Part shown: positions 6,969 through 35,803 of the stretch, piece after piece | How the letters are laid out: every line of letters starts with the position of its first letter | How positions within the stretch are numbered: the first letter of the stretch is position 1 | Assembly: GCA_947172415.1 (NCBI GenBank) | Contig: OX359191.1 | Coordinates: 3,596,001 to 3,660,000, forward strand | Direction of reading: 5' to 3' | Length of the DNA: 64,000 nucleotides | From: Chondrosia reniformis | Lineage: Eukaryota; Porifera; Demospongiae; Chondrillida; Chondrillidae | Notes under the pieces: generated by a model | The model's database searches: none | The model's input: the letters and a program-made list of their open reading frames with translations, nothing else | Told to the model about the DNA's origin: nothing | Made by a program: the position numbers and the translations under genes

Positions 6969-7253
6969 CATCATGGCACAAAAAAGAGACTACCACGCCA
7001 CGAGAAGATGAAATAAGCGTTTTTTATATTCGTGCTAAAGGTTGCTCTATCTTATTCATTATTTTGCAACCCTTTCTTTTCTGACACCTGATTTATCCAA
7101 CATTTTTGGTTGAAACAAACGCTGTCAGTTAAACCAGGGCCCACTGTAATCTATCTCTTACAAATAGACTGCTCTGATTTCAGAAATTAAAAAAATGTAG
7201 CCTCCATCCCAATAATACTGATGTTCGCATGTACAACAATCGTACAATTGAAG
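6969..7253. other. Inserted unique sequence, no gene seen
   Basis: Sequence unlike the array, lying between the left array junction and a small palindromic element. I see no reading frame of note and no match to the EF2 exons that should follow exon 7. It probably belongs to the inserted genomic segment that carries the EF2 fragment. Confidence 0.6.
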
Positions 7254-7405
7254 TACCGCAAATTCAGGAAATTTCATTATTAAAATATTTTCATGGTTGT
7301 CTCCTCGTTCATTTGTTTGTGTAAATCAAGAAGTGCAGTTGGATTAGACCATGAAAATATTTCAACAAGAAAATTTATCACAAGAAAATTTCCCAAATTA
7401 CGGTA
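7254..7405. mobile_element. Small MITE-like palindromic element
   Basis: A 152-bp stretch with imperfect inverted ends: it starts TACCGCAAATT and ends AATTACGGTA. The inner parts also mirror each other (aaatattttcatggt at about 7283-7297 against accatgaaaatattt at about 7349-7363). This is the structure of a miniature inverted-repeat element without coding capacity. It lies in what should be the intron after EF2 exon 7, and the EF2 similarity does not resume beyond it. Confidence 0.6.
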
Positions 7406-7429
7406 TATAGTCCCATTTAGAGGTCTCAC

Positions 7430-9533
7430 CTTGAGATTATGGGCATGATCATAGGTGGATAGAGTCCCAGTCTTGACCAAGAACTGGTCAACGCCCACAA
7501 GCCCAGCAATGTTGCCGCAGGGCACATCTTCTATAGCTTCCACGTACCTACCCATCATAAGAATAGTTCTCTGAATTGACTTTGTGTAGAGATCTTCCTT
7601 CTTGCCAGGAACATAATTAGGCCCCATGATTCTGACCTTCTGACCTGTTGCAACAGTACCAGAGAAAACACGACCAAATGCATAGAATCTCCCCTTGTCT
7701 GATGTGGGTACCATCTTGCTGATGTACATCATTAACGGAGCCTTAAGAAAATGATTAAAGGAACCTTTTGTTGGCATATTTTTTGAAGAGGAAAAATTGG
7801 AGACTTAAGATCAAAAGCTGTTCCTAACCTCAGATGCCATCAACAAAGAACTCTGGATTTACCCCGCCCACTCATGTCTCCTGAGGAGCACAATGAGCAA
7901 TGGGTGGAACCAAAGTTCACTTGATGGGAACTAGTCTGCTCTTATAGCCAATCACAACATGGTCAAGACACAGAAAACTGTTTCTTCCTTATTAGGACTT
8001 ATCAGTATGGCATAGTATGGAAGTTTAAGCAGTCACTCTGCTCATAGGTACTCCCAAAAGCTAAAAAGCTTGTGGTTCCTTATCAGCAAATAAGAGGTAA
8101 CTACACATTTACACAAACATACCTTTGGATCACAATTTTTGATTCCAAGCGCACATGGATCGTCATGAGGTCCTTCATACAATAGCTCCATTCTGTAGCC
8201 TTGAGCTGTAACTGGGGAAGGAAGGTGGATGGTAATCATTTGAAGCAAGGCCTCCCCGGCTGGGAGCCATTTGCGCATCATGGTTTTCAACAGCGGTTTT
8301 CCTTCTAAGTGCTAAACAAATAAATAACTAGGAGTAAAATTGACAAATAAAACACACTAAACGTAAAGAAAACCTTTTCTTCTCCTTCCAGTTTAATCTG
8401 CAATTTTTCAATAAGTTTCTGCGTTTCTTCCTTTTTGAAATTCATGACAGCATCAAATACTTTGTAGATTGGGTCCAGGATGAACTGACAGAAGCCCCTA
8501 ACATAGTTGTCACTCTTAGTCTTGGACCATTTCTTCTCCTTGGCATTGTAAAACTGGTCTCCCCAGAATCTCTTCATTAACTTTTCTGGCTCAATTTTAA
8601 ACTTTGCTGAATACATCTCTGCAAATTGCTTCAGGGTGAAAGCCCATCCATGAAGACCGGAACCGAACCCCACTGTACCATTAACTGCTTGAACCTGAGG
8701 AACAAAAAACTTGCACGTTATTGCACAAGCTTTGGGGAATCAGTTAATAAGGGCCATACAAGGGTTAATTATTAGTCAACCAACCTGCGCATCTCCCATT
8801 GGGCTGTCCTCACTCCCATAGGTGGCAATGATCACATTTGTGCTTTCCAAAATCTTGTTAAATTTCTGATACAGGTCTTCCATCTCCAACTGCAGTTCCA
8901 GCAAGGCACGGTCCATCTTGTTCATGAAGAGAACTGGCCTAATCCTCTCTACCAATGCCTGACGTAGTACAGTTTCAGTTTGTACACTCACACCTTAAAA
9001 ATGGTAAATCCATTCAATTTATGTTCAAGATAGATTTACTCCAGCCTGGTGCATTGTGATCGGATACAGCAACACTTACCACTGACACAATCCACGACTA
9101 CAAGAGCTCCATCAGTAACACGGAGGGCTGCCGTAACCTCAGAGGAAAAGTCCACGTGACCAGGGGAATCAATCAGATTGATCAGAAAGCCATTTCCATC
9201 TACTTTCTGCTTTACACTCTTCAAGTCGGAGTCCTTCAATTCATAATACAGTGAAATGGCACTAGAAAAACGAAGGACCTTTTAAAGGTAGCAGTGACAA
9301 CACTTAACAATTACATACGTCGATTTGATTGTGATGCATCGCTCCTGTTCGTCCTTTCTTGTGTCTGTGTAGCGCATTTCACCCGCCTTAGCTCCCGTAA
9401 TAATACCGGCTTTTGTGACCAAAGAATCCGTCAAGGTGGACTTGCCGTGATCTACGTGTGCTATTACAGACATGTTGCGTATATTGGTACGCTTTTCCAT
9501 GATAGCTCGAACTTGATCTATCGTGAAGTTAAC
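7430..9533 (-). pseudogene. EEF2: Elongation factor 2 fragment, exons 2-7 (N-terminal half)
   Basis: Six minus-strand exons with GT-AG borders: 9533-9319, 9261-9080, 8993-8785, 8694-8374, 8311-8123 and 7741-7430. Joined, they total 1,428 nt, an unbroken 476-codon frame with all phases agreeing. It begins VNFTIDQ, the residues that follow the initiator Met in animal EF2. GTPase motifs are intact: AHVDHGKST (P-loop), DSPGHVDF (G3), NKMD (G4). It runs through the G domain into domain II ([19 protein letters not shown]) and then stops. EF2 is usually about 850 residues, so domains III-V, with the diphthamide loop needed for translocation, are absent. The ATG exon and promoter are also absent: array resumes 87 bp upstream of exon 2. 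I read it as a truncated gene copy moved into the array. The lack of disabling mutations suggests it is recent, or under selection inside a chimeric transcript. Confidence 0.92.
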
Positions 9534-9620
9534 CTAAAAATTGAGGGAAGCAATTTACATATAGTGGATTGTACAGATACAATTCTTAGTTAATCACACA
9601 ATAATAAGTATTGGGAATCC
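9534..9620. other. Intron remnant and right junction of the EF2 segment
   Basis: It contains the splice acceptor side of EF2 intron 1 (tttttag before exon 2, read on the minus strand) and then about 80 bp of unique sequence. From about 9621 (aataccaagttgggtcacc) the sequence is again array, entering a unit in the middle of its T-arm. Comparison with the uninterrupted copy at about 12290-12400 shows that the EF2 segment replaced roughly 90 bp, almost exactly the tRNA-like module. Confidence 0.75.
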
Positions 9621-12428
9621 AATACCAAGTTGGGTCACCTGAAAAAAGAAAAACAAGCATACATCTTATATATGTATTATATATATTATATGTAATATAT
9701 ATTGTATATATCTTATATGCATATTATATATCTTATATATTGCATATATATGTAGAGTCAAAAGTGAGTGGTATATAAATAGGACTTCATTAACATCAAA
9801 TATTGGGTGACCCACGTGACCGATGGTGTTACGGATGACATCTTCTTGATACAAGGTACGAGGATGACCTGGTTCAATACCAGGTAGGGTCTTGAAAAAA
9901 GAAAAACGCATACATCTTACATATATATTATATATCTTATATGTTTTATATATTGTATATATCTTATATGCATATTATATATCTTATATATTGCATATAT
10001 ATGTAGAGTCAAAAGTGAGTGGTATATAAATAGGACTTCATTTACAACAAATATTGGGTGACCCACGTGACCGAAGGTGTTACGGATGACATCGTCTGGA
10101 TACAAGGTACGAGGATGCCCTGGTTCAATACCAGGTAGGGTCTTGAAAAAAGAAAAAAGCATACATCTTACATATATATTATATATCTTATATGTTTTAT
10201 ATATTGTATATATCTTATATGCATATTATATATCTTATATATTGCATATATATGTAGAGTCTAAAGTGAGTGGTATATAAATAGGCCTTCATTTACAACA
10301 AATATTGGGTGACCCACGTGACCGATGGTGTTACGGATGACATCGTCTGGATACAAGGTACAGGGATGGCCTGATTCAATACCAGTTTGGGTCCTGAAAA
10401 AAGAAAAAAGCATACATCTTACATATATATTATATATCTTATATGTTTTATATATTGTATATATCTTATATGCATATTATATATCTTATATATTGCATAT
10501 ATATGTAGAGTCAAAAGTGAGTGGTATATAAATAGGACTTCATTTACAACAAATATTGGGTGACCCACGTGACCGAAGGTGTTACGGATGACATCGTCTG
10601 GATACAAGGTACGAGGATGCCCTGGTTCAATACCAGGTAGGGTCTTGAAAAAAGAAAAAAGCATACATCTTACATATATATTATATATCTTATATGTTTT
10701 ATATATTGTATATATCTTATATGCATATTATATATCTTATATATTGCATATATATGTAGAGTCAAAAGTGAGTGGTATATAAATAGGACTTCATTTACAA
10801 CAAATATTGGGTGACCCACGTGACCGAAGGTGTTACGGATGACATCGTCTGGATACAAGGTATGAGGATGCCCTGGTTCAATACCAGGTAGGGTCTTGAA
10901 AAAAGAAAAAAGCATACATCTTACATATATATTATATATCTTATATGTTTTATATATTGTATATATCTTATATGCATATTATATATCTTATATATTGCAT
11001 ATATATGTAGAGTCTAAAGTGAGTGGTATATAAATAGGCCTTCATTTACAACAAATATTGGGTGACCCACGTGACCGATGGTGTTACGGATGACATCGTC
11101 TGGATACAAGGTACAGGGATGGCCTGATTCAATACCAGTTTGGGTCCTGAAAAAAGAAAAAAGAGCATACATCTTATATATATATTATATATCTTATATG
11201 TAATATATATTGTATATATCTTATATGCATATTATATATCTTATATATTGCATATGTATGTAGAGTCAAAAGTGAGGGGTATATAAATAGGACTTCATTT
11301 AAAACATATATTATGGTAGACACGTGACCGATGGTGTTACGGATGACATCGTCTTGATACAAGGTACGAGGATGACCTGGTTAAATATCAGGTTGGGTCC
11401 TGAAAAAAGAAAAAAAAGGATAGATCTTATATGTGTATTATATATCTTATATATATGTAATATATATTGTATATATCTTATATGCATATTATATATCTTA
11501 TATATTGCATATATACGTAGAGCCAAAAGTATATAAATAGGACTTCATTTACAACAATAATGGGTGACCCACATGACCGATGGTGTTACGGATGATATCG
11601 TCTGGATACAAGGTTCGAGGATGCCCTGGTTCAATACCAGGTAGGGCCTTGAAAAAAGAAAAAAGCATACATCTTATATATATCTTATATATCTTATATG
11701 TAATATATATTGTATATATCTTATATGCATATTATATATTTTATATATTGCATATATATGTAGAGTCAAAAGTGAGTGGTATAAAAATAGGACTTCATTT
11801 ACAACAAATATTGGGTGACTCACGTGACCGATGGTGTTACGGATGACATCGTCTGGATACAAGGTACGAGGATGCCCTGATTCAATACCAGTTTGGGTCC
11901 TGAAAAAAGAAAAAAGAGCATACATTTTATATATGTATTATATATCTTTTATGTAATATATATTGTATATATCTTATATGCATATTATATATTTTATTTA
12001 TTGCATATATATATAGAGTCAAAAGTGAGGGGTATATAAATATGACTTCATTTAAAACATATATTATGGAAGCCACGTGACCGATGGTGTTACGGATGAC
12101 ATCGTCTGGATACAAGGTACGAGGATGCCCTGGTTCAAAACCAGGTAGCGTCCTGAAAAAAGGAAAAAATACATCTTATATATGTATTATATATCTTATA
12201 TGTAATATATATTGTATATATCTTATATGCATATTATATATCTTATATATTGCATATATGTAGAGTCTAAAGTAAGTGGTATATAAATAGGACTTCATTT
12301 ACAACATATATTATGGAACCCACATGACCGATGGTGTTACGGATGACATCGTCTGGATACAAGGTACGAGTATGCCTTGGTTCAATACCAAGTTGGGTCA
12401 CCTGAAAAAAGAAAAACAAGCATACATC

Positions 12429-15400
12429 TTATATATGTATTATATATATTATATGTAATATATATTGTATATATCTTATATGCATATTATATATCTTATA
12501 TATTGCATATATATGTAGAGTCAAAAGTGAGTGGTATATAAATAGGACTTCATTAACATCAAATATTGGGTGACCCACGTGACCGATGGTGTTACGGATG
12601 ACATCTTCTTGATACAAGGTACGAGGATGACCTGGTTAAATACCAGGTTGGGTCCTGAAAAAAGAAAAAAAGCATAGATCTTATATGTGTATTATATATC
12701 TTATATATATGTAATATATATTGTATATATCTTATATGCATATTATATATCTTATATATTGCATATATACGTAGAGCCAAAAGTAAGTGGTATATAAATA
12801 GGACTTCATTTACAACAATAATGGGTGACCCACATGACCGATGGTGTTACAGATGACATCGTCTGGATACAAGGTTCGAGGATGCCCTGGTTCAATACCA
12901 GGTAGGGCCTTTGAAAAAAGAAAAAAGCATACATCTTATATATATATATTATATATCTTATATGTAATATATATTGTATATACCTTATATGCATATTATA
13001 TATTTTATATATTGCATATATATGTAGAGTCAAAAGTGAGGGGTATATTAATATGACTTCATTTACAACATATATTATGGAAGCCACGTGACCGATGGTG
13101 TTACGGATGACATCGTCTGGATACAAGGTACGAGGATTCCCTGGTTCAAAACCAGGTTGCGTCCTGAGAAAAGAAAAAAATACATCTTATATATATATTA
13201 TATATCCTATATGTAATATATATTGTATATATCTTATATGCATATTATATATCTTATATATTGCATATATGTAGAGTCTAAAGTAAGTGGTATATAAATA
13301 GGACTTCATTTACAACATATATTATGGAACCCACATGACCGATGGTGTTACGGATGACATCATCTGGATACAAGGTACGAGTATGCCCTGGTTCAATACC
13401 AAGTTGGGTCACCTGAAAAAAGAAAAACAAGCATACATCTTATATATGTATTATATATATTATATGTAATATATATTGTATATATCTTATATGCATATTA
13501 TATATCTTATATATTGCATATATATGTAGAGTCAAAAGTGAGTGGTATATAAATAGGACTTCATTAACATCGAATATTGGGTGACCCACGTGACCGATGG
13601 TGTTACGGATGACATCTTCTTGATACAAGGTACGAGGATGACCTGGTTAAATACCAGGTTGGGTCCTCAAAAAAGAAAAAAAAGCATAGATCTTATATGT
13701 GTATTATATATCTTATATAAATGTAATATATATTGTATATATCTTATATGCATATTATATATCTTATATATTGCATATATACGTAGAGCCAAAAGTAAGT
13801 GGTATATAAATAGGACTTCATTTACAACAATAATGGGTGACCCACATGACCGATGGTGTTACGGATGACATCGTCTGGATACAAGGTTCGAGGATGCCCT
13901 GGTTCAATACCAGGTAGGGCCTTGAAAAAAGAAAAAAGCATACATCTTATATATATATTATATATCTTATATGTAATATATATTGTATATACCTTATATG
14001 CATATTATATATTTTATATATTGCATATATATGTAGAGTCAAAAGTGAGGGGTATATAAATATGACTTCATTTACAACATATATTATGGAAGCCACGTGA
14101 CCGATGGTGTTACGGATGACATCGTCTGGATACAAGGTACGAGGATGCCCTGGTTCAAAACCAGGTTGCATCCTGAAAAAAGAAAGAAAATACATCTTAT
14201 ATATGTATTATATATCTTATATGTAATATATATTGTATATATCTTATATGCATATTATATATCTTATATATTGCATATATGTAGAGTCTAAAGTAAGTGG
14301 TATATAAATAGGACTTCATTTACAACATATATTATGGAACCCACATGACCGATGGTGTTACGGATGACATCGTCTGGATACAAGGTACGAGTATGCCCTG
14401 GTTCAATACCAAGTTGGGTCACCTGAAAAAAGAAAAACAAGCATACATCTTATATATGTATTATATATATTATATGTAATATATATTGTATATATCTTAT
14501 ATGCATATTATATATCTTATATATTGCATATATATGTAGAGTCAAAAGTGAGTGGTATATAAATAGGACTTCATTAACATCAAATATTGGGTGACCCACG
14601 TGACCGATGGTGTTACGGATGACATCTTCTTGATACAAGGTACGAGGATGACCTGGTTAAATACCAGGTTGGGTCCTGAAAAAAGAAAAAAAAGCATAGA
14701 TCTTATATGTGTATTATATATCTTATATATATGTAATATATATTGTATATATCTTATATGCATATTATATATCTTATATATTGCATATATACGTAGAGCC
14801 AAAAGTAAGTGGTATATAAATAGGACTTCATTTACAACAATAATGGGTGACCCACATGACCGATGGTGTTACGGATGACATCGTCTGGATACAAGGTTCG
14901 AGGATGCCCTGGTTCAATACCAGGTAGGGCCTTGAAAAAAGAAAAAAGCATACATCTTATATATATATTATATATCTTATATGTAATATATATTGTATAT
15001 ATCTTATATGCATATTATATATTTTATTTATTGCATATATATGTAGAGTCAAAAGTGAGGGGTATATAAATACGACTTCATTTACAACATATATTATGGA
15101 AGCCACGTGACCGATGGTGTAACGGATGACATCGTCTGGATACAAGTTACGAGGATGCCCTGATTCAATACGAAGTTGGGTGACCTGAAAAAAGAAAAAC
15201 AAGCATACATCTTATATATGTATTATATATCTTATATGTAATATATCTTATATGCACATTATATATCTTATATATTGCATATATATGTAGAGTCAAAAGT
15301 GAGTGGTAAATCAATAGGACTTCATTTACAACATATATTGTGGAACCCACGTGACCGATGGTGTTACGGATGACATCGTCTGGATACAAGGTACGAGAAT

Positions 15401-15460
15401 GCCCTGATTCAATACCAGTTTGGGTCCTGAAAAAAGAAAAAAGAGCATACATCTTATATA
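12429..15460 (+). repeat. Four-unit higher-order repeat, three copies
   Basis: The same series of variant units recurs with an offset of 1,011 bp and then 1,010 bp: landmark sequences at 12429, 13440 and 14450 correspond, as do those at about 12841, 13853 and 14863. Each copy is four units long. The third copy diverges near its end. Confidence 0.85.
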
Positions 15461-15499
15461 TCTTATAGGTAACATATATTGTATATATATATCTTATAT

Positions 15500-18423
15500 A
15501 TTGCATATATATGTAGAGTCAAAAGTGAGGGGTATATAAATAGGACTTCATTAAAACATATATTATGGTAGCCACGTGACCGATGATGTTACGGATGACA
15601 TCGTCTTGATACAAGGTACGAGGATAACCAGGTTCAATACCAGGTTGGGTCCTGAAAAAAGAAAAAAAAGCATACATTTTATTTGTGTATTATATATCTT
15701 ATATGTAATATATATTGTATATAACTTATATGCATATTATATATCTTATATATTGCATATATATGTAGAGTCAAAAGTGAGTGGTTTACAAATAGGACTT
15801 CATTTACAACAAATATTGGGTGACCCACATGACCGACGATGTTACGGATGACATCGTCTGGATACAAGGTACGAGGATAACCTGGTTCAATACCAAGTTG
15901 GGTCCTGAAAAAAGAAAAAAGCATACATCTTATATCTATATGATATATCTTATATGTAATATATATTGTATATATCTTATATGCATATTATATATTTTCT
16001 ATATTGCATATATATGTAGAGTCAAAAGTGAGTGGTATATAAATAGGACTTCATTTACAACAAATATTGGGTGACCCACGTGACCGATGGTGTTACGGAT
16101 GACATCGTCTGGATACAAGGTACGAGGATGCCCTGATTCAATACCAGTTTGGGTCCTGAAAAAAGAAAAAAGAGAATACATTTTATATATGTATTATATA
16201 TCTTTTATGTAATATATATTGTATATATTTTATATGCATATTATATATTTTATTTATTGCATATATATGTAGAGTCAAAAGTGAGGGGTATATAAATACG
16301 ACTTCATTTACAACATATATTATGGAAGCCACATGACCGATGGTGTTACGGATGACATCGTCTGGATACAAGGTACGAGGATGCCCTGGTTCAATACCAA
16401 GTTGGGTCACCTGAAAAAAGAAAAACAAGCATACATCCTATATATGTATTATATATATTATATGTAATATATATTGTATATATCTTATATGCATATTATA
16501 TATCTTATATATTGCATATATATGTAGAGTCAAAAGTGAGTGGTATATAAATAGGACTTCATTAACATCAAATATTGGGTGACCCACGTGATCGATGGTG
16601 TTACGGATGACATCGTCTTGATACAAGGTACGAGGATGCCCTGATTCAATACCAGTTTGGGTCCTGAAAAAAGAAAAAAGAGCATACATCTTATATATGT
16701 ATTATATATCTTATATGTAATATATAAGATATATATCTTATATGCATATTATATATCTTATATATTGCATATATATGTAGAGTCAAAAGTGAGGGGTATA
16801 TAAATAGGACTTCATTTACAACAATAATGGGTGACCCACATGACCGATGGTGTTACGGATGACAACGTCTGGATACAAGGTATGAGGATGCCCTGGTTCA
16901 ATACCAGGTAGGGCCCTGAAAAAAGAAAAATGCATACATCTTATATATATATTATATATCTTATATGTAATATATATTGTATATATCTTATATGTATATT
17001 ATATATTTTATATATTGCATATATATGTAGAGTCAAAAGTGAGTGGTTTATAAATAGGACTTCATTTACAACAAATATTGGGTGACCCACGTGACCGATG
17101 GTGTAACGGATGACATCGTCTGGATACAAGTTACGAGGATGCCCTGATTCAATACCAGTTTGGGTCCTGAAAAAAGAAAAAAGAGCATACATCTTATATA
17201 TCTTATATGTAACATATATTGTATATATATATCTTATATATTGCATATATATGTAGAGTCAAAAGTGAGGGGTATATAAATAGGACTTCATTAAAACATA
17301 TATTATGGTAGCCACGTGACCGATGATGTTACGGATGACATCGTCTTGATACAAGGTACGAGGATAACCAGGTTCAATACCAGGTTGGGTCCTGAAAAAA
17401 GAAAAAAAAGCATACATTTTATTTGTGTATTATATATCTTATATGTAATATATATTGTATATATCTTATATGCATATTATATATCTTATATATTGCATAT
17501 ATATGTAGAGTCAAAAGTGAGTGGTTTACAAATAGGACTTCATTTACAACAAATATTGGGTGACCCACATGACCGACGATGTTACGGATGACATCGTCTG
17601 GATACAAGGTACGAGGATAACCTGGTTCAATACCAAGTTGGGTCCTGAAAAAAGAAAAAAGCATACATCTTATATATATATTATATATCTTATATGTAAT
17701 ATATATTGTATATATCTTATATGCATATTATATATTTTCTATATTGCATATATATGTAGAGTCAAAAGTGAGTGGTATATAAATAGGACTTCATTTACAA
17801 CAAATATTGGGTGACCCACGTGACCGATGGTGTTACGGATGACATCGTCTGGATACAAGGTACGAGGATGCCCTGATTCAATACCAGTTTGGGTCCTGAA
17901 AAAAGAAAAAAGAGAATACATTTTATATATGTATTATATATCTTTTATGTAATATATATTGTATATATTTTATATGCATATTATATATTTTATTTATTGC
18001 ATATATATGTAGAGTCAAAAGTGAGGGGTATATAAATACGACATCATTTACAACATATATTATGGAAGCCACATGACCGATGGTGTTACGGATGACATCG
18101 TCTGGATACAAGGTACGAGGATGCCCTGGTTCAATACCAAGTTGGGTCACCTGAAAAACGAAAAACAAGCATACATCCTATATATGTATTATATATATTA
18201 TATGTAATATATATTGTATATATCTTATATGCATATTATATATCTTATATATTGCATATATATGTAGAGTCAAAAGTGAGTGGTATATAAATAGGACTTC
18301 ATTAACATCAAATATTGGGTGACCCATGTGACCGATGGTGTTACGAATGACATCGTCAGGAAATAAGGTACGAGGATGCCCTGGTTCAATACCAAGTTGG
18401 GTCACCTGAAAAAAGAAAAACAA
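15500..18423 (+). repeat. Seven-unit higher-order repeat, two copies
   Basis: The block beginning near 15500 is repeated 1,740 bp further on. Corresponding points are 15576/17316, 15679/17419, 15820/17560, 15999/17739 and 16183/17923. The copies differ by scattered single bases. Confidence 0.85.
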
Positions 18424-19199
18424 GCATACATCTTATATATGTATTATATATATTATATGTAATATATATTGTATATATCTTATATGCATATTATATATCT
18501 TATATATTGTATATATATATATATGTAGAGTCAAAAGTGAGTGGTATATAAATAGGACTTCCTTTACAACATATATTGGGTGACCCACGTGATCGATGGT
18601 GTTACGGATGACATCGTCTTGATACAAGGTACGAGGATGCCCTGATTCAATACCAGTTTGGGTCCTGAAAAAAGAAAAAAGAGCATACATCTTATATATG
18701 TATTATATATCTTATATGTAATATATAAGATATATATCTTATATGCATATTATATATCTTATATATTGCATATATATGTAGAGTCAAAAGTGAGGGGTAT
18801 ATAAATAGGACTTCATTTACAACAATAATGGGTGACCCACATGACCGATGGTGTTACGGATGACAACGTCTGGATACAAGGTATGAGGATGCCCTGGTTC
18901 AATACCAGGTAGGGCCCTGAAAAAAGAAAAAAGCATACATCTTATATATGTAATATATATCTTATATGTAATATATATGTTATATATCTTATATGCATAT
19001 TATATATCTTATATATTGCATATATATGTAGAGTCAAAAGTTAAATAGGACTTCATTTAAAACATATATTATGGAAGCCACGTGACCAATGGTGTTACGG
19101 ATGACATCGTCTGGATAAAAGGTACGAGGATGCCGTGGTTCAAAATAAGGTTGGGTCCTGAAAAAAGAAAAAAAAGGATACATCTTATATATGTATTAT

Positions 19200-22100
19200 A
19201 TATCTTATATGTAATATATATGGTATATATCTTATATGCATATTATATATCTTATATATTGTATATATATATATATATGTAGAGTCAAAAGTGAGTGGTA
19301 TATAAATAGGACTTCATTTATAACATATATTGGGTGACCCACGTGACCGATGGTGTTACGGATGACATCGTCTGGATACAAGGTACGAGGATGCCCTGAT
19401 TCAATACCAGTTTGGGTCCTGAAAAAAGAAAAAAGAGCATACATCTTATATATGTATTATATATCTTATATGTAATATATATTGTATATATCTTATATGC
19501 ATATTATATATCTTATATATTGCATATATATGTAGAGTCAAAAGTGAGTGGTAAATCAATAGGACTTCATTTACAACATATATTGTGGAACCCACGTGAC
19601 CGATGGTGTTACAGATGACATCGTCTGGATACAAGGCACGAGGATGCCCTGGTTCAATACCAGGTTGGGTCCTGACAAAAAAAAGCATACATCTTATATA
19701 TGTATTATATGTCTTATATGTAATATATATTGTATATATATCTTATATGCATATCAAATATCTTATATATTGTATATATATATATATATGTAGAGTCAAA
19801 AGTGAGTGGTATATAAATAGGACTTCATTTACAACATATATTGGGTGACCCACGTGACCGATGGTGTTACGGATGACATCGTCTGGATACAAGGTACGAG
19901 GATGCCCTGGTTCAATACCAAGTTGGGTCACCTGAAAAAAGAAAAACAAGCATACATCCTATATATGTATTATATATATTATATGTAATATATATTGTAT
20001 ATATCTTATATGCATATTATATATCTTATATATTGCATATATATGTGGAGTCAAAAGTGAGGGGTATATAAATAGGACTTCATTAACATCAAATATTGGG
20101 TGACCCATGTGACCGATGGTGTTACGAATGACATCGTCAGGATATAAGGTACGAGGATGCCCTGGTTCAATACCAAGTCGGGTCACCTGAAAAAAGAAAA
20201 ACAAGCATACATCTTATATATGTATTATATATATTATATGTAATATATTGTATATATCTTATATGCATATTATATATCTTATATATTGTATATATATATA
20301 TATGTAGAGTCAAAAGTGAGTGGTATATAAATAGGACTTCATTTACAACATATATAGGGTGACCCACGTGACCGATGGTGTTAAGGATGACATCGTCTTG
20401 ATACAAGGTACGAGGATGCCCTGATTCAATACCAGTTTGGGTCCTGAAAAAAGAAAAAAGAGCATACATCTTATATATGTATTATATATCTTATATGCAT
20501 ATTATATATCTTATATATTGCATATATATGTAGAGTCAAAAGTGAGGGGTATATAAATAGGACTTCATTAAAACATATATTATGGTAGCCACGTGACCGA
20601 CGATGTTACGGATGACATCGTCTTGATACAAGGTACGAGGATAACCTGGTTCAATACCAAGTTGGGTACTGAAAAAAGAAAAAAAAGCATACATCTTATA
20701 TGTGTATTATATATCTTATATGTAATATATATTGTATATATCTTATATGCATATTATATATCTTATATATTGTATATATATATATATGTAGAGTCAAAAG
20801 TGAGTGGTATATAAATAGGACTTCATTTACAACATATATAGGGTGACCCACGTGACCGATGGTGTTAAGGATGACATCGTCTTGATACAAGGTACGAGGA
20901 TGCCCTGATTCAATACCAGTTTGGGTCCTGAAAAAAGAAAAAAGAGCATACATCTTATATATGTATTATATATCTTATATGCATATTATATATCTTATAT
21001 ATTGCATATATATGTAGAGTCAAAAGTGAGGGGTATATAAATAGGACTTCATTAAAACATATATTATGGTAGCCACGTGACCGACGATGTTACGGATGAC
21101 ATCGTCTTGATACAAGGTACGAGGATAACCTGGTTCAATACCAAGTTGGGTACTGAAAAAAGAAAAAAAAGCATACATCTTATATGTGTATTATATATCT
21201 TATATGTAATATATAAGATATATATCTTATATGCATATTATATATCTTATATATTGCATATATATGTAGAGTCAAAAGTGAGGGGTATATAAATAGGACT
21301 TCATTAAAACATATATTATTGTAGCCACGTGACCGACGATGTTACGGATGACATCGTCTTGATACAAGGTATGAGGATAACCTGGTTCAATACCAAGTTG
21401 GGTCCTGAAAAAAGAAAAAAAAGCATACATCTTTTATGTGTATTATATATCTTATATGTAATATATATATTGTATATATCTTATATGTATATTATATATC
21501 TTATATATTGCATATATATGTAGAGTCAAAAGTAAGTGGTATATAAATAGGACTTCATTTAAAACAATAATGGGTGACCCACATGACCGATGGTGTTACG
21601 GATGACAACGTCTGGATACAAGGTATGAGGATGCCCTGGTTCAATACCGGGTAGGGCCCTGAAAAAAGAAAAAAGCATACATCTTATATATATATTATAT
21701 ATCTTATATGTAATATATATTGTATATATCTTATATGTATATTATATATTTTATATATTGCATATATATGTAGAGTCAAAAGTGAGTGGTTTATAAATAG
21801 GACTTCATTTACAACAAATATTGGGTGACCCACGTGACCGATGGTGTAACGGATGACATCGTCTGGATACAAGTTACGAGGATGCCCTGATTCAATACCA
21901 GTTTGGGTCCTGAAAAAAGAGAAAAGAGCATACATCTTATATATGTATTATATATCTTATATGTAATATATATGTTATATATCTTATATGCATATTATAT
22001 ATCTTATATATTGCATATATATGTAGAGTCAAAAGTTAAATAGGACTTCATTTAAAACATATATTATGGAAGCCACGTGACCAATGGTGTTACGGATGAC

Positions 22101-25100
22101 ATCGTCGGGATACAAGGTACGAGGATGCCGTGGTTCAAAACAAGGTTGGGTCCTGAAAAAAGAAAAAAAAGGATACATCTTATATATGTATTATATATCT
22201 TATATGTAATATATATTGTATATATCTTATATGCATATTATATATCTTATATATTGCATATATATGTAGAGTCAAAAGTGAGTGGTAAATCAATAGGACT
22301 TCATTTACAACATATATTGTGGAACCCGACCGATGGTGTTACAGATGATATCGTCTGGATACAAGGTACGAGGATGCCCTGGTTCCATACCAAGTTGGGT
22401 CACCTCAAAAAAGAAAAACAAGCATACATCTTATATATGTATTATGTATATTATATATAATATATATTGTATATATCTTATATGCATATGATATATCTTA
22501 TATATTGCATATATACGTAGAGTCAAAAGTGAGTGGTTTATAAATAGGACTTCATTTACAACAAATATTGGGTGACCCACGTGACCGATGGTGTAACGGA
22601 TGACATCGTCTGGATACAAGTTACGAGGATGCCCTGATTCAATACCAGTTTGGGTCCTGAAAAAAGAGAAAAGAGCATACATCTTATATATGTATTATAT
22701 ATCTTATATGTAATATATATGTTATATATCTTATATGCATATTATATATCTTATATATTGCATATATATGTAGAGTCAAAAGTTAAATAGGACTTCATTT
22801 AAAACATATATTATGGAAGCCACGTGACCAATGGTGTTACGGATGACATCGTCGGGCTACAAGGTACGAGGATGCCGTGGTTCAAAACAAGGTTGGGTCC
22901 TGAAAAAAGAAAAAAAAGGATACATCTTATATATGTATTATATATCTTATATGTAATATATATTGTATATATCTTATATGCATATTATATATCTTATATA
23001 TTGCATATATATGTAGAGTCAAAAGTGAGTGGTAAATCAATAGGACTTCATTTACAACATATATTGTGGAACCCGACCGATGGTGTTACAGATGATATCG
23101 TCTGGATACAAGGTACGAGGATGCCCTGGTTCAATATCAGGTTGGGTCCTGAAAAAAGAAAAAAGAGCATACATCTTATATATGTATTATATATCTTATA
23201 TGTAATATATAAGATATATATCTTATATGCATATTATATATCTTATATATTGCATATATTTGTAGAGTCAAAAGTGAGGGGTATATAAATAGGACTTCAT
23301 TAAAACATATATTATGGTAGCCACGTGACCGACGATGTTACGGATGACATCGTCTTGATACAAGGTACGAGGATAACCTGGTTCAATACCAAGTTGGGTC
23401 CTGAAAAAAGAAAAAAGCATACATCTTATATATGTATTATATATCTTATATGTAATATATATGGTATATATCTTATATGCATATTATATATCTTATATAT
23501 TGTATATATATATATATATGTAGAGTCAAAAGTGAGTGGTATATAAATAGGACTTCATTTATAACATATATTGGGTGACCCACGTGACCGATGGTGTTAC
23601 GGATGACATCGTCTGGATACAAGGTACGAGGATGCCCTGATTCAATACCAGTTTGGGTCCTGAAAAAAGAAAAAAGAGCATACATCTTATATATGTATTA
23701 TATATCTTATATGTAATATATATTGTATATATCTTATATGCATATTATATATCTTATATATTGCATATATATGTAGAGTCAAAAGTGAGTGGTAAATCAA
23801 TAGGACTTCATTTACAACATATATTGTGGAACCCACGTGACCGATGGTGTTACAGATGACATCGTCTGGATACAAGGTACGAGGATGCCCTGGTTTAATA
23901 CCAGGTTGGGTCCAGACAAAAAAAAAGCATACATCTTATATATGTATTATATGTCTTATATGTAATATATATTGTATATATATCTTATATGCATATCAAA
24001 TATCTTATATATTGTATATATATATATATATGTAGAGTCAAAAGTGAGTGGTATATAAATAGGACTTCATTTACAACATATATTGGGTGACCCACGTGAC
24101 CGATGGTGTTACGGATGACATCGTCTGGATACAAGGTACGAGGATGCCCTGGTTCAATACCAAGTTGGGTCACCTGAAAAAAGAAAAACAAGCATACATC
24201 CTATATATGTATTATATATATTATATGTAATATATATTGTATATATCTTATATGCATATTATATATCTTATATATTGCATATATATGTAGAGTCAAAAGT
24301 GAGTGGTATATAAATAGGACTTCATTAACATCAAATATTGGGTGACCCATGTGACCGATGGTGTTACGAATGACATCGTCAGGATATAAGGTACGAGGAT
24401 GCCCTGGTTCAATACCAAGTCGGGTCACCTGAAAAAAGAAAAACAAGCATACATCTTATATATGTATTATATATATTATATGTAATATATTGTATATATC
24501 TTATATGCATATTATATATCTTATATATTGTATATATATATATATGTAGAGTCAAAAGTGAGTGGTATATAAATAGGACTTCATTTACAACATATATAGG
24601 GTGACCCACGTGACCGATGGTGTTAAGGATGACATCGTCTTGATACAAGGTACGAGGATGCCCTGATTCAATACCAGTTTGGGTCCTGAAAAAAGAAAAA
24701 AGAGCATACATCTTATATATGTATTATATATCTTATATGTAATATATAAGATATATATCTTATATGCATATTATATATCTTATATATTGCATATATATGT
24801 AGAGTCAAAAGTGAGGGGTATATAAATAGGACTTCATTAAAACATATATTATGGTAGCCACGTGACCGACGATGTTACGGATGACATCGTCTTGATACAA
24901 GGTACGAGGATAACCTGGTTCAATACCAAGTTGGGTCCTGAAAAAAGAAAAAAAAGCATACATCTTATATGTGTATTATATATCTTATATGTAATATATA
25001 AGATATATATCTTATATGCATATTATATATCTTATATATTGCATATATATGTAGAGTCAAAAGTGAGGGGTATATAAATAGGACTTCATTAAAACATATA

Positions 25101-28100
25101 TTATTGTAGCCACGTGACCGACGATGTTACGGATGACATCGTCTTGATACAAGGTATGAGGATAACCTGGTTCAATACCAAGTTGGGTCCTGAAAAAAGA
25201 AAAAAAAGCATACATCTTATATGTGTATTATATATCTTATATGTAATATATATTGTATATATCTTATATGCATATTATATATCTTATATATTGCATATAT
25301 ATGTAGAGTCAAAAGTGAGTGGTAAATCAATAGGACTTCATTTACAACATATATTGTGGAACCCGACCGATGGTGTTACAGATGATATCGTCTGGATACA
25401 AGGTACGAGGATGCCCTGGTTCCATACCAAGTTGGGTCACCTCAAAAAAGAAAAACAAGCATACATCTTATATATGTATTATGTATATTATATATAATAT
25501 ATATTGTATATATCTTATATGCATATGATATATCTTATATATTGCATATATACGTAGAGTCAAAAGTGAGTGGTTTATAAATAGGACTTCATTTACAACA
25601 AATATTGGGTGACCCACGTGACCGATGGTGTAACGGATGACATCGTCTGGATACAAGTTACGAGGATGCCCTGATTCAATACCAGTTTGGGTCCTGAAAA
25701 AAGAGAAAAGAGCATACATCTTATATATGTATTATATATCTTATATGTAATATATATGTTATATATCTTATATGCATATTATATATCTTATATATTGCAT
25801 ATATATGTAGAGTCAAAAGTTAAATAGGACTTCATTTAAAACATATATTATGGAAGCCACGTGACCAATGGTGTTACGGATGACATCGTCGGGCTACAAG
25901 GTACGAGGATGCCGTGGTTCAAAACAAGGTTGGGTCCTGAAAAAAGAAAAAAAAGGATACATCTTATATATGTATTATATATCTTATATGTAATATATAT
26001 TGTATATATCTTATATGCATATTATATATCTTATATATTGCATATATATGTAGAGTCAAAAGTGAGTGGTAAATCAATAGGACTTCATTTACAACATATA
26101 TTGTGGAACCCGACCGATGGTGTTACAGATGATATCGTCTGGATACAAGGTACGAGGATGCCCTGGTTCAATATCAGGTTGGGTCCTGAAAAAAGAAAAA
26201 AGAGCATACATCTTATATATGTATTATATATCTTATATGTAATATATAAGATATATATCTTATATGCATATTATATATCTTATATATTGCATATATTTGT
26301 AGAGTCAAAAGTGAGGGGTATATAAATAGGACTTCATTAAAACATATATTATGGTAGCCACGTGACCGACGATGTTACGGATGACATCGTCTTGATACAA
26401 GGTACGAGGATAACCTGGTTCAATACCAAGTTGGGTCCTGAAAAAAGAAAAAAGCATACATCTTATATATGTATTATATATCTTATATGTAATATATATG
26501 GTATATATCTTATATGCATATTATATATCTTATATATTGTATATATATATATATATGTAGAGTCAAAAGTGAGTGGTATATAAATAGGACTTCATTTATA
26601 ACATATATTGGGTGACCCACGTGACCGATGGTGTTACGGATGACATCGTCTGGATACAAGGTACGAGGATGCCCTGATTCAATACCAGTTTGGGTCCTGA
26701 AAAAAGAAAAAAGAGCATACATCTTATATATGTATTATATATCTTATATGTAATATATATTGTATATATCTTATATGCATATTATATATCTTATATGTTG
26801 CATATATATGTAGAGTCAAAAGTGAGTGGTAAATCAATAGGACTTCATTTACAACATATATTGTGGAACCCACGTGACCGATGGTGTTACAGATGACATC
26901 GTCTGGATACAAGGTACGAGGATGCCCTGGTTTAATACCAGGTTGGGTCCAGACAAAAAAAAAGCATACATCTTATATATGTATTATATGTCTTATATGT
27001 AATATATATTGTATATATATCTTATATGCATATCAAATATCTTATATATTGTATATATATATATATATGTAGAGTCAAAAGTGAGTGGTATATAAATAGG
27101 ACTTCATTTACAACATATATTGGGTGACCCACGTGACCGATGGTGTTACGGATGACATCGTCTGGATACAAGGTACGAGGATGCCCTGGTTCAATACCAA
27201 GTTGGGTCACCTGAAAAAAGAAAAACAAGCATACATCCTATATATGTATTATATATATTATATGTAATATATATTGTATATATCTTATATGCATATTATA
27301 TATCTTATATATTGCATATATATGTAGAGTCAAAAGTGAGTGGTATATAAATAGGACTTCATTAACATCAAATATTGGGTGACCCATGTGACCGATGGTG
27401 TTACGAATGACATCGTCAGGATATAAGGTACGAGGATGCCCTGGTTCAATACCAAGTCGGGTCACCTGAAAAAAGAAAAACAAGCATACATCTTATATAT
27501 GTATTATATATATTATATGTAATATATTGTATATATCTTATATGCATATTATATATCTTATATATTGTATATATATATATATGTAGAGTCAAAAGTGAGT
27601 GGTATATAAATAGGACTTCATTTACAACATATATAGGGTGACCCACGTGACCGATGGTGTTAAGGATGACATCGTCTTGATACAAGGTACGAGGATGCCC
27701 TGATTCAATACCAGTTTGGGTCCTGAAAAAAGAAAAAAGAGCATACATCTTATATATGTATTATATATCTTATATGTAATATATAAGATATATATCTTAT
27801 ATGCATATTATATATCTTATATATTGCATATATATGTAGAGTCAAAAGTGAGGGGTATATAAATAGGACTTCATTAAAACATATATTATGGTAGCCACGT
27901 GACCGACGATGTTACGGATGACATCGTCTTGATACAAGGTACGAGGATAACCTGGTTCAATACCAAGTTGGGTCCTGAAAAAAGAAAAAAAAGCATACAT
28001 CTTATATGTGTATTATATATCTTATATGTAATATATAAGATATATATCTTATATGCATATTATATATCTTATATATTGCATATATATGTAGAGTCAAAAG

Positions 28101-29300
28101 TGAGGGGTATATAAATAGGACTTCATTAAAACATATATTATTGTAGCCACGTGACCGACGATGTTACGGATGACATCGTCTTGATACAAGGTATGAGGAT
28201 AACCTGGTTCAATACCAAGTTGGGTCCTGAAAAAAGAAAAAAAAGCATACATCTTATATGTGTATTATATATCTTATATGTAATATATATATTGTATATA
28301 TCTTATATGTATATTATATATCTTATATATTGCATATATATGTAGAGTCAAAAGTAAGTGGTATATAAATAGGACTTCATTTAAAACAATAATGGGTGAC
28401 CCACATGACCGATGGTGTTACGGATGACAACGTCTGGATACAAGGTATGAGGATGCCCTGGTTCAATACCAGGTAGGGCCCTGAAAAAAGAAAAAAGCAT
28501 ACATCTTATATATATATTATATATCTTATATGTAATATATATTGTATATATCTTATATGTATATTATATATTTTATATATTGCATATATATGTAGAGTCA
28601 AAAGTGAGTGGTTTATAAATAGGACTTCATTTACAACAAATATTGGGTGACCCACGTGACCGATGGTGTAACGGATGACATCGTCTGGATACAAGTTACG
28701 AGGATGCCCTGATTCAATACCAGTTTGGGTCCTGAAAAAAGAGAAAAGAGCATACATCTTATATATGTATTATATATCTTATATGTAATATATATGTTAT
28801 ATATCTTATATGCATATTATATATCTTATATATTGCATATATATGTAGAGTCAAAAGTTAAATAGAACTTCATTTAAAACATATATTATGGAAGCCACGT
28901 GACCAATGGTGTTACGGATGACATCGTCGGGATACAAGGTACGAGGATGCCGTGGTTCAAAACAAGGTTGGGTCCTGAAAAAAGAAAAAAAAGGATACAT
29001 CTTATATATGTATTATATATCTTATATGTAATATATATTGTATATATCTTATATGCATATTATATATCTTATATATTGCATATATATGTAGAGTCAAAAG
29101 TGAGTGGTAAATCAATAGGACTTCATTTACAACATATATTGTGGAACCCGACCGATGGTGTTACAGATGATATCGTCTGGATACAAGGTACGAGGATGCC
29201 CTGGTTCAATATCAGGTTGGGTCCTGAAAAAAGAAAAAAGAGCATACATCTTATATATGTATTATATATCTTATATGCATATTATATATCTTATATATTG
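19200..29300 (+). repeat. Twelve-unit (3,037-bp) higher-order repeat domain
   Basis: The segments 22431-25230 and 25468-28270 match with a constant offset of 3,037 bp (landmarks 22824/25861, 23325/26362, 24201/27238, 24862/27899, 25114/28151). Earlier pieces belong to the same family at other offsets: 19232-20470 recurs 4,241-4,242 bp later, and 21329-22400 recurs 6,822 bp later. The nesting of offsets indicates repeated unequal exchange in whole-unit steps. Confidence 0.88.
19810..19932 (+). other. Representative TATA box plus tRNA-like module of one unit
   Basis: This unit shows the structure shared by the array. TATA box tatataaatag lies at 19810-19820. The tRNA-like module starts at 19843, 33 bp after the first T of the TATA box. 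Its 5' end ggtgaccc (19844-19851) pairs perfectly with gggtcacc (19925-19932), like an acceptor stem. The A-box-like tgaccgatgg starts at 19855, and the B-box ggttcaatacc fits the GGTTCRANNCC consensus, 44 nt beyond the A-box as in tRNA genes. Most units have the perfect T-arm cctgg-ttcaata-ccagg; this one has a single mismatch. The anticodon region does not fold into a normal seven-base loop, so this is not a working tRNA gene. No T-run terminator follows on the plus strand. A tRNA-derived SINE that became tandem is the likeliest origin. Confidence 0.6.
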
Positions 29301-32300
29301 CATATATTTGTAGAGTCAAAAGTGAGGGGTATATAAATAGGACTTCATTAAAACATATATTATGGTAGCCACGTGACCGACGATGTTACGGATGACATCG
29401 TCTTGATACAAGGTACGAGGATAACCTGGTTCAATACCAAGTTGGGTCCTGAAAAAAGAAAAAAGCATACATCTTATATATGTATTATATATCTTATATG
29501 TAATATATAAGATATATATCTTATATGCCTATTATATATCTTATATATTGCATATATATGTAGAGTCAAAAGTGAGGGGTATATAAATAGGACTTCATTA
29601 AAACATATATTATGGTAGCCACGTGACCGACGATGTTACGGATGACATCGTCTTGATACAAGGTACGAGGATAACCTGGTTCAATACCAAGTTGGGTCCT
29701 GAAAAAAGAAAAAAAAGCATACATCTTATATGTGTATTATATATCTTATATGTAATATATATATTGTATATATCTTATATGTATATTATATATCTTATAT
29801 ATTGCATATATATGTAGAGTTAAAAGTAAGTGGTATATAAATAGGACTTCATTTACAACAATAATGGGTGACCCACATGACCGATGGTGTTACGGATGAC
29901 AACGTCTGGATACAAGGTATGAGGATGCCCTGGTTCAATACCAGGTAGGGCCCTGAAAAAAGAAAAAAGCATACATCTTATATATATATTATATATCTTA
30001 TATGTAATATATATTGTATATATCTTATATGTATATTATATATTTTATATATTGCATATATATGTAGAGTCAAAAGTGAGTGGTTTATAAATAGGACTTC
30101 ATTTACAACAAATATTGGGTGACCCACGTGACCGATGGTGTAACGGATGACATCGTCTGGATACAAGTTACGAGGATGCCCTGATTCAATACCAGTTTGG
30201 GTCCTGAAAAAAGAGAAAAGAGCATACATCTTATATATGTATTATATATCTTATATGTAATATATATGTTATATATCTTATATGCATATTATATATCTTA
30301 TATATTGCATATATATGTAGAGTCAAAAGTTAAATAGGACTTCATTTAAAACATATATTATGGAAGCCACGTGACCAATGGTGTTACGGATGACATCGTC
30401 GGGATACAAGGTACGAGGATGCCGTGGTTCAATACGAAGTTGGGTGACCTGAAAAAAGAAAAACAAGCGTACATCTTATATATGTATTATATATCTTATA
30501 TGTAATATATATGTAATATATCTTATATGCATATTATATATCTTATATATTGCATATATATGTATAGTCAAAAGTGAGTGGTATATAAATAGGACTTCAT
30601 TTACAACATATATTATGGAACCCACATGACCGATGGTGTTACGGATGACATTGTCTGGATACAAGGTACGAGGATGCCCTGGTTCAATACCAAGTTGGGT
30701 CACCTGAAAAAAGAAAAACAAGCATACATCCTATATATGTATTATATATATTATATGTAATATATATTGTATATATCTTATATGCATATTATATACCTTA
30801 TATATTGCATATATATGTAGAGTCAAAAGTGAGTGGTATATAAATGGGACTTCATTAACATCAAATATTGGGTGACCCATGTGACCGATGGTGTTACGAA
30901 TGACATCGTCAGGATATAAGGTACGAGGATGCCCTGGTTCAATACCAAGTTGGGTCACCTGAAAAAAGAAAAACAAGGATACATCTTATATATGTATTAT
31001 ATACATTATATGTAATATATATTGTATATATCTTATATGCATAATATATATGTTATATATTGTATATATATATATATGTAGAGTCAAAAGTGAGTGGTAT
31101 ATAAATAGGACTTCATTTACAACATATATTGGGTGACCCACGTGACTGATGGTGTTACGGATGACATCGTCTTGATACAAGGTACGAGGATGCCCTGATT
31201 CAATACCAGTTTGGGTCCTGAAAAAAGAAAAAAGAGCATACATCTTATATATGTATTATATATCTTATATGCATATTATATATCTTATATATTGCATATA
31301 TATGTAGAGTCAAAAGTGAGGGGTATATAAATAGGACTTCATTAAAACATATATTATGGTAGCCACGTGACCGACGATGTTACGGATGACATCGTCTTGA
31401 TACAAGGTACGAGGATAACCTGGTTCAATACCAAGTTGAGTCCTGAAAAAAGAAAAAAAAGCATACATCTTATATGTGTATTATATATCTTATATGTAAT
31501 ATATATTGTATATATCTTATATGTATATTATATATCTTATATATTGCATATATATGTAGAGTCAAAAGTAAGTGGTATATAAATATATAGGACTTCATTT
31601 ACAACAATAATGGGTGACCCACATGACCGATGGTGTTACGGATGACAACGTCTGGATACAAGGTATGAGGATGCCCTGGTTCAATACCAGGTAGGGCCCT
31701 GAAAAAAGAAAAAAGCATACATCTTATATATATATTATATATCTTATATGTAATATATATTGTATATATCTTATATGTATATTATATATTTTATATATTG
31801 CATATATATGTAGAGTCAAAAGTGAGTGGTTTATAAATAGGACTTCATTTACAACAAATATTGGGTGACCCACGTGACCGATGGTGTAACGGATGACATC
31901 GTCTGGATACAAGTTACGAGGATGCCCTGATTCAATACCAGTTTGGGTCCTGAAAAAAGAAAAAAGAGCATACATCTTATATAAGTAATATATATCTTAT
32001 ATGTAATATATATGTTATATATCTTATATGCATATTATATATCTTATATATTGCATATATATGTAGAGTCAAAAGTTAAATAGGACTTCATTTAAAACAT
32101 ATATTATGGAAGCCACGTGACCAATGGTGTTACGGATGACATCGTCTTGATACAAGGTACGAGGATAACCTGGTTCAATACCAAGTCGGGTCCTGACAAA
32201 AGAAAAAAAAGAATACATCTTATATGTGTATTATATATCTTAAATGTAATATATATTGTATATATCTTATATGCATATTATATATCTTATATATTGCATA

Positions 32301-35300: not shown

Positions 35301-35733
35301 GCATATAATATATTGCATATATATGTAGAGTCAAAAGTGAGTGGTATATAAAAGGACTTCATTTACAAAGTATATTTGGTGACCCACGTGACCGATGGTG
35401 TTACGGATGACATCGTCTGGATACAAGGTACGAGGATGCCCTGGTTCAATACCAGGTTGGGTGCAGAAAAAGAAAAAAAGGATACATCTTATATATGTAT
35501 TATATATCTTATATGTAATATATATTGTATATATCTTATATGTAATATATATTGTATATATCTGATATGCATATTATATATCTCATATATTGCATATATA
35601 TGTAGAGTCAAAAGTGAGTGGTATATAAATAGGACTTCATTTACAACATATATTATGGAACCCACGTGACCGATGGTGTTATGGATGACATCGTATGGAT
35701 AAAAGGTACGAGCATGCCCTATCATAATTTTTA

Positions 35734-35803
35734 TTTTTTTTGAGGACCCAACCTGGTATTGAACCAGGGCGGTTCAATACCAGGTTGGGTCCTGAAAAAA
35801 AAA
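35734..35803. repeat. Perfectly apposed inverted copy of the T-arm and A-tract
   Basis: The only place in the array where part of a unit appears inverted. An eight-T run plus the reverse complement of the T-arm and 3' border (gaggacccaacctgg, then tattgaacc) is followed after five bases by the normal-orientation copy (ggttcaatacc onward to the A run). The arms are about 32 bp with one mismatch, making a cruciform or hairpin. Confidence 0.85.

Follow-up and report, generated by a model that had tools for sequence, protein, structure and literature searches.

A tandem satellite of the sponge Chondrosia reniformis that pairs a TATA box with a likely tRNA-derived module

A stretch of 64,000 nt from the demosponge Chondrosia reniformis (C3:3596001-3660000 of a genome of 117,379,552 bases in 15 contigs; hereafter the window) is largely occupied by a tandem satellite whose units carry a TATA box followed by a short tRNA-like module. 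According to the genome paper, the assembly comprises 14 chromosomes of 117.37 Mb and a mitochondrion of 17.45 kb (PMC12181767). An earlier interpretation of the letters of this DNA (the sequence-only reading) had proposed that the units form a tandem family with a complete putative RNA polymerase III (Pol III) promoter in every copy, or a satellite derived from a short interspersed element (SINE). Comparison of the units with the sponge's own tRNA genes leads us to lean modestly toward a tRNA-derived satellite that is mostly a decayed Pol III unit.

The satellite array and its repeat unit

Using a 137-nt module as query, nhmmer detected 145 matches on the plus strand and one on the minus strand of the window, fragments counted, and 142 plus-strand modules scored above 90 bits and were considered near-complete (those at or below 90 bits were left out of further counts). 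These numbers agree with the approximately 145 units of the sequence-only reading, but the TATA sequence TATATAAATAG, which it had placed in all of them, is present in just 100 exact copies in the window, i.e., not in every unit. The period is approximately 252 bp, with a spacing of 244-261 bp in 115 of the 141 gaps between near-complete modules. In each unit, TATATAAATAG is followed by a GC-richer part of approximately 90 nt and then by a tail rich in A, and the remainder is an AT-rich linker (TATATATCTTATATGCAT type). The features of the array and of the unit named in the sequence-only reading are as follows:

80..44642, plus strand: satellite array, period approximately 252 bp, 142 near-complete modules
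approximately 511-3137, 6972-9620, and 37210-40200: interruptions of the array (borders by eye)
19808..20062, plus strand: the named unit, 255 bp until the next unit begins
19810..19820, plus strand: TATATAAATAG, the top-conserved 11-mer of the unit over seven chromosomes
19844-19852, plus strand: 5' side of an acceptor-like stem, GGTGACCCA (by eye)
19854..19932, plus strand: tRNA-like module of 79 nt, with its best alignment to tRNA-Val(TAC)
19862..19872, plus strand: A-box-like TGGTGTTACGG, weak, with T in place of tRNA A14
19906..19922, plus strand: T-arm-like hairpin CCTGG-TTCAATA-CCAAG, in which the named unit forms 4 of 5 pairs
19909..19919, plus strand: B-box-like GGTTCAATACC, 97 nt downstream of the start of TATAAATA
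19924-19932, plus strand: 3' side of the acceptor-like stem, TGGGTCACC (by eye)
19934..19951, plus strand: A-rich tail right after the module
19952..20062, plus strand: AT-rich linker, TATATATCTTATATGCAT type

Nearly identical multi-unit blocks are repeated within the array. Blocks 5190-6960 and 10523-12293 are identical in 1754 of 1771 aligned columns, 23538-26574 and 26575-29611 in 2959 of 3077, and 15531-17270 and 17271-19010 in 1652 of 1751; a fourth comparison was uninformative, the blocks being unequal in length.

Genome-wide, the 19-mer GGTATATAAATAGGACTTC was found 1130 times (435 forward and 695 reverse), and because 83 of these sites fall inside the window, we estimate by proportion that there are approximately 1,900 satellite units in the genome, which would make up about 0.5 Mb, close to 0.4% of the assembly. 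Other patterns of the module were a 23-mer (507 occurrences), a 48-mer (106), and a 76-mer with at most one mismatch (56), and the reversed control patterns of all four had 0 occurrences each. The 19-, 23-, and 48-mer sites were placed among the matches listed (at most the first 100 in contig order). Among these matches and 40 scored candidates (see below), the satellite is located on C2, C3, C4, C6, C7, C10, and C14 (7 of 14 chromosomes), and its places among the matches listed lie at approximately 30-58% of the chromosome length, i.e., mid-chromosome, with several separate arrays each on C3 and C4. Among the matches listed, C1 had none for the 19-, 23-, and 48-mers and C5, C8, and C9 none for the 48-mer, while a complete search gave no match to the strict 76-mer (at most one mismatch) on C11-C13; diverged copies are possible on all of these. 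The orientation changes from plus at 3.58-3.64 Mb to minus at 3.74-3.80 Mb on C3, and it also flips on C4, where one flip lies within locus L066. This locus shows an abrupt strand switch of the array at approximately 5846 and, between satellite stretches, a foldback of approximately 0.75 kb with two near-identical inverted arms (3240-4015; C4 at approximately 3.791 Mb; by eye). Their position suggests that the arrays may be (peri)centromeric on about half of the chromosomes.

Likeness of the module to tRNA

A covariance model with an explicit cloverleaf (R1) was built on 19 tRNAs of this sponge; its E-values are rough, and the intron-bearing tRNA of locus L040 was dropped between versions A1 and A2. 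With filters off and E-values up to 10, R1 gave 47 matches in the window, the top one reaching 13.8 bits, and 45 of them lie on the plus strand in modules; the remaining two correspond to an inverted satellite fragment (35744-35791) and one site elsewhere. In 18 array samples from seven chromosomes the best match reached 16.4 bits, compared with a background maximum of 9.1 bits in 92 kb around 30 tRNA genes (tRNAs, antisense strands, and the relic of locus L034 excluded). The tRNA genes themselves, many of which went into R1, scored 64-86 bits. The excluded relic (L034 2294-2365, minus strand) is tRNA-like, scores 28.5 bits with R1, and is possibly a tRNA pseudogene or the head of a SINE.

In a global alignment of the 79-nt stretch (GTGACCG...GGGTCACC) with tRNA-Val(TAC), 51 of 73 aligned bases are identical, and the score of 61.75 was reached by 1 of 1000 shuffles, the shuffle maximum being 45.0 +/- 4.0. 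The reverse complement of the same stretch does not stand out, its score being equaled by 192 of 1000 shuffles. Predicted folds of two consensus modules contain a T-arm-like hairpin in both and an acceptor-like stem in one (z-scores -3.0 and -1.9). The acceptor-like stem that the sequence-only reading had noted in some copies does exist as a 9-bp pair, GGTGACCCA/TGGGTCACC, but both of its sides are present just 8 times in the window. In 295 units sampled across the seven chromosomes (hereafter the sampled units), the acceptor-stem sides GGTGACC and GGGTCACC occur together in 27 and alone in 83 and 16, respectively.

TATA boxes of the satellite and of the sponge tRNA genes

TATAWAWR is the general TATA consensus. 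When the unit was shuffled 4000 times with its dinucleotides preserved (one strand), such a box arose in 65% of the shuffles, exact TATATAAATAG in 0.5%, and TATA followed by a B box in 0.8%. Similar boxes precede the tRNA genes of the sponge: TATAWA or TTTAWA starts 27-42 nt before the tRNA in 35 of 48 distinct upstream regions versus 6.8% of 690 far-upstream windows, and strict TATAWA is found in 25 of 48 versus 3.5% of these null windows. Upstream regions shorter than 60 nt were excluded and duplicates merged to give the 48, and the null windows were drawn from the 30 longest tRNA upstreams, 20 of which have a box. TATA and B box lie 79-97 nt apart in 25 tRNA genes that have TATAWA (92-97 nt in class II ones). 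Both boxes are retained by 169 sampled satellite units, and the distance is 97 or 96 nt in 157 of these, which supports the view that the satellite TATA box is positioned as in the sponge's own tRNA genes. We also checked U6 genes for a common upstream element; the better copy has TTTATAAG approximately 30 nt upstream, and no further likeness of the U6 upstream region to the satellite was seen by eye.

A TATA-like box near -35 in most tRNA genes examined (loci L010-L059) sets this sponge apart from the animals reported in passages of a 2024 comparison, in which TBP positions upstream of tRNA genes were well expressed only in S. pombe and A. thaliana and weak TATA-like motifs were seen in all of its eukaryotes (PMC11547032). 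In another study, TATA-like boxes at -31/-24 are reported to influence the transcription of mouse type 2 Pol III genes and SINEs (PMC7279448). No counterpart of the TATA boxes of the sponge tRNA genes was found in limited literature searches, which is not proof of absence.

Internal boxes, terminator, and conservation

The consensus of the B box scores 12.2 bits compared with a tRNA 10th percentile of 11.5, a level reached by 58% of the sampled units, and the core GWTCRANNC is present in 210 of 295. Full GGTTCRANNCC arose in 0.05% of the 4000 unit shuffles, and a T-arm with a TTCRANN loop in 0.7%. The sequence-only reading had described a consensus B box, which is acceptable by this score, but exact GGTTCAATACC occurs just 77 times in the window. 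It had further noted an A-box-like sequence at a distance of 44 nt ahead of the B box; the consensus gives 47 nt from the start of this sequence to the B box, and with 1.9-2.8 bits versus a tRNA minimum of 6.2 (identical boxes left out) the A-box-like sequence falls below every tRNA A box used. An A-box-like match this good at the correct distance from a B box has a chance of 3.7%. The combined A+B score of the consensus in position weight matrices (1 of 44 tRNAs left out, lacking an A-box match) is 14.4 versus a tRNA minimum of 23.0; among 5000 module shuffles 11 reached it, as did 2 of 432 non-satellite windows, and the shuffle result is mainly an effect of the B box, which gave 21 of 5000 by itself.

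Perfect T-arms, which had been attributed to most copies, turned out to be a minority, with 40 exact copies in the window and 106 in the sampled units; the named unit itself lacks one pair. When G-U is allowed, 117 of 295 are fully paired (pairing was uncounted in 64 of 295 units without TTCAATA), and a compensated change, CTTGG/CCAAG in one unit, was the only one among the 25 commonest arm types. The absence of a nearby T-run terminator was confirmed for most sites: TTTT lies within 60 nt downstream of 12 of 111 TTCAATACC sites, 99 being without it, and the median distance is 556 nt, compared with TTTT within 25 nt after all 50 tRNA rows of the control (two genes appear twice). Given a poor A box, a B box and T-arm that are not specially conserved, and a terminator that is usually far away, a complete working Pol III promoter in each unit is not supported.

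For conservation, identical units were counted once (137 reduced to 115 in the window; across chromosomes, merged within each chromosome label), and units outside 200-310 bp or beside matches of at most 50 bits were left out. Across seven chromosomes (293-295 distinct units), TATATAAATAG ranks first in 8 of 8 analyses (four rotations and two weightings) and GGTTCAATACC ranks 54th-134th of approximately 251 11-mers. When gaps are ignored, TATA is still first and the B box 132nd of 251, and in a bootstrap over arrays the median rank of the B box is 76.5 (5-95%, 35-126). Within the window, 89 of 243 11-mers are better conserved than the B box, and there is no excess for either box. Loss of the two is independent (both kept in 169 units, one only in 70 and 41, neither in 15; Fisher P 0.75). 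Across chromosomes the TATA box is more conserved than the rest of the unit, the B box is average, and the T-arm is rarely compensated. The TATA box may thus be under constraint, but there is no sign of constraint on a tRNA-like RNA structure. The consensus unit also contains an E-box of the CACGTG type, CACGTGACC, at 19851-19859 of the window and at the same place in other units; with a rank of 143-209 of approximately 251, its conservation is lower than that of most of the unit.

Retroposon features, insertions, and neighbors of the array

An A-rich tail of the GAAAAGAAAA type, as would be expected of a SINE-derived satellite, was detected in 207 of the sampled units and resembles a retroposon tail. 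No dispersed family was detected: the best 40 of 1792 genome candidates were scored, all of them on the seven array chromosomes, and the number of candidates is in line with the estimated 1,900 or so array units. When dispersed relatives of tRNA-Val(TAC) were sought, 3 of 3 matches were tRNA-Val-like.

Several insertions interrupt the satellite. A pogo/Tigger-like DNA transposon (511-3137) has short terminal inverted repeats starting with CAGTGGAACC and TA at both sides (by eye); the repeats were absent from an inverted-repeat search with a minimum arm of 18. Its transposase has DDE_1, HTH_Tnp_Tc5, and sub-cut-off CENP-B_N matches, and a second open reading frame has a HIRAN domain. A partial, intron-bearing EF2-like gene copy on the minus strand (6972-9620), with matches to EF-Tu/EF-G domain 2 and a missing C-terminal part (by eye), apparently takes the place of part of one unit, which points to a segmental duplication that landed in the array. 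An element resembling a long interspersed element, with a reverse transcriptase open reading frame (RVT_1), is inserted at 37210-40130. Intron-rich sequence directly adjoins the array (44700-49000), and its exons resemble protein tyrosine phosphatase genes (by eye). Elsewhere in the assembly, COX1 on C15 (17,451 bases) contains 8 internal TGA codons.

Origin and possible activity of the satellite

Several results weigh against a tRNA-derived satellite. Above the background of 9.1 bits lie 24 plus-strand window matches of R1 versus 142 near-complete modules, and 71 array-sample matches versus 215 sample modules; most single modules do not stand out because they stay at or below this background, and in cmsearch the match of the named unit (19856-19930) has just 7.0 bits, with other units reaching 16.4. 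ARAGORN, and Rfam at its thresholds, found no tRNA in the window, and Rfam relaxed to E-values up to 10 found none in 19000-22500. The covariance-model check proposed in the sequence-only reading gave R1 matches of up to 16.4 bits and no Rfam match. The ends of the 79-nt stretch were picked after a first alignment, and in a previous run, in which the ends were longer, the score was equaled by 4 of 200 and by 2 of 200 shuffles. The isotype is also unsteady: the other subfamily ending slightly favors tRNA-Arg(ACG) (57.0 versus 56.5 for Val, also with 1 of 1000 shuffles), Val(TAC) is the top isotype in 120 of 295 units (127 counting the second Val gene, L080), and the module's best score in the earlier alignment, 59.25, is below the lowest score of a tRNA against another isotype, 65.25. 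Predicted minimum-energy folds of the two consensus modules are not cloverleaves. The TATA box is not specially conserved inside the window alone (86 of 243 11-mers are better), and its bootstrap rank spreads over 1-26 (5-95%; median 2). Finally, it starts 42 nt before the 79-nt stretch, versus 28-36 nt before the tRNA in the 25 tRNA genes; the distance to the RNA start becomes 32 nt, within the tRNA range, only if the RNA starts at GGTGACCCA. The fit to tRNA genes is less clear for this distance than for that from TATA to the B box.

Descent of the module from a tRNA is supported by R1 and the alignment, but the isotype switches, no cloverleaf fold is predicted, and neither Rfam nor ARAGORN calls a tRNA; such an ancestry therefore appears likely but not proven, with moderate strength, and tRNA-Val(TAC) is a tentative isotype. 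The account toward which we lean, with confidence a little better than even, is that of a tRNA-derived satellite in which the Pol III unit has for the most part decayed but may still bind TBP/TFIIIB, and which is a passenger or structural sequence near candidate centromeres. The source of the unit may have been a tRNA gene, or a retropseudogene of one, that most resembled tRNA-Val(TAC) and had an upstream TATA box and an A-rich tail, beside an AT-rich linker. Repeated blocks of several units and the strand switches suggest that it then multiplied through tandem duplication; it could also have spread from one mid-chromosome region to others, although the order of these events is inferred. The tRNA relic would be decaying in most copies, its RNA structure not preserved. 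The TATA box and acceptable B box of many copies could weakly recruit TBP/TFIIIB and TFIIIC; the Pol III capacity is probably residual, and transcripts, if made by Pol III, would run on to a chance TTTT. The present role would most likely be that of a passenger or structural satellite.

It is unlikely that many units are active Pol III units with TATA and A/B boxes, whose read-through RNA or bound TFIIIB/TFIIIC has a role in mid-chromosome chromatin. Such activity would agree with a TATA sequence that is the top-conserved 11-mer across chromosomes, with a TATA-to-B-box distance fitting the TATA-bearing tRNA genes of the sponge, and with a B box whose consensus, at 12.2 bits, exceeds the 10th percentile of the tRNAs (11.5), a level that 58% of 295 units reach; it is difficult to reconcile with an A box of 1.9-2.8 bits versus a tRNA minimum of 6.2, a best A+B score of 14.4 versus 23.0, a B box of middle rank, independent loss of TATA and B box, a mostly distant terminator, and a T-arm often broken and seldom compensated. 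A related possibility, that selection keeps the TATA box in an array of Pol III-type promoters so that TBP/TFIIIB bound at many units opens or patterns centromere chromatin in this early-branching animal, with read-through RNA and a decaying tRNA part, is in our judgment quite doubtful.

We consider it rather improbable that the tRNA likeness arose by chance, from an unrelated GC-richer core with a B-box-like hairpin beside a TATA-prone AT-rich linker. In favor of chance, a TATAWAWR box turns up in 65% of unit shuffles, neither Rfam nor ARAGORN reports a tRNA, and the A+B score is equaled in 2 of 432 windows outside the satellite; moreover, many module matches do not amount to many tests, because the units of the array are nearly a single sequence in terms of independence. 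Chance would nevertheless have to produce GGTTCRANNCC (0.05% of shuffles) and the T-arm (0.7%), full-length matches to the tRNA model above background, an alignment with tRNA-Val equaled by 1 of 1000 shuffles, and an A-box-like match that, given the B box, has a probability of 3.7%. Very improbable, finally, is a role of TATATAAATAG as an RNA polymerase II (Pol II) TATA box or another protein's site, with any satellite transcription by Pol II: the sequence fits the general consensus TATAWAWR, is conserved apart from the B box, and is mostly distant from a Pol III terminator, but similar boxes precede most examined tRNA genes of the sponge, and a tRNA-like module follows at the matching distance from TATA to B box. 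Because most examined sponge tRNA genes carry a TATA-like box near -35, a Pol III interpretation of the satellite becomes testable, and these boxes are interesting by themselves.

Comparison with known systems

Limited literature searches found no sponge satellite of such a kind and no mention of Chondrosia in this context, which is not proof of absence, and none of the terms satellite, centromer-, or tandem appears in the Chondrosia genome paper's main text (PMC12181767). The view that such satellites are unusual is partly right, the kind being known from amphibians (PMC10702118). By its tandem units and, with moderate strength, its tRNA-like segment, the sponge satellite would be classed as a tRNA-related tandem satellite. 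It is a concrete candidate for the mid-chromosome sequence of Chondrosia reniformis, and would extend tRNA-related tandem families from amphibians to a sponge.

By description, a close likeness is Rana/polIII of Palearctic green frogs, which is likewise highly repeated with a tandem unit of approximately 250 nt; its partial tRNA similarity is reported as 64% over 64 nt, the region outside has no similarity to known SINEs, and it makes up as much as 10% of some frog genomes, compared with approximately 0.4% of the assembly for the sponge satellite (PMC10702118). PolIII/TAN (Hirt) of the newt Cynops pyrrhogaster is also a tandem repeat with a tRNA-like sequence for which no similar SINE was identified, but its unit is approximately 360 nt, tRNA-Glu is named in a cited title, and it is transcribed in vitro (PMC10702118). 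Hy/polIII of salamanders is of the same kind, its tRNA origin being called questionable, and Xenopus OAX/satellite I has a longer unit than that of the sponge and, according to a cited title, is transcribed in oocytes (PMC10702118). The SINE-derived satellites of squamates were also born from an element of the tRNA class, but their SINE ancestor is recognized (PMC10702118). In passages on the limpet PcH-Sat, a SINE-derived satellite is reported to be pericentromeric on 5 of 9 chromosome pairs, comparable to the 7 of 14 chromosomes listed here; it differs in having a recognized SINE ancestor, whose segment lacks A and B boxes, whereas no SINE family was detected for the sponge satellite (PMC11121367).

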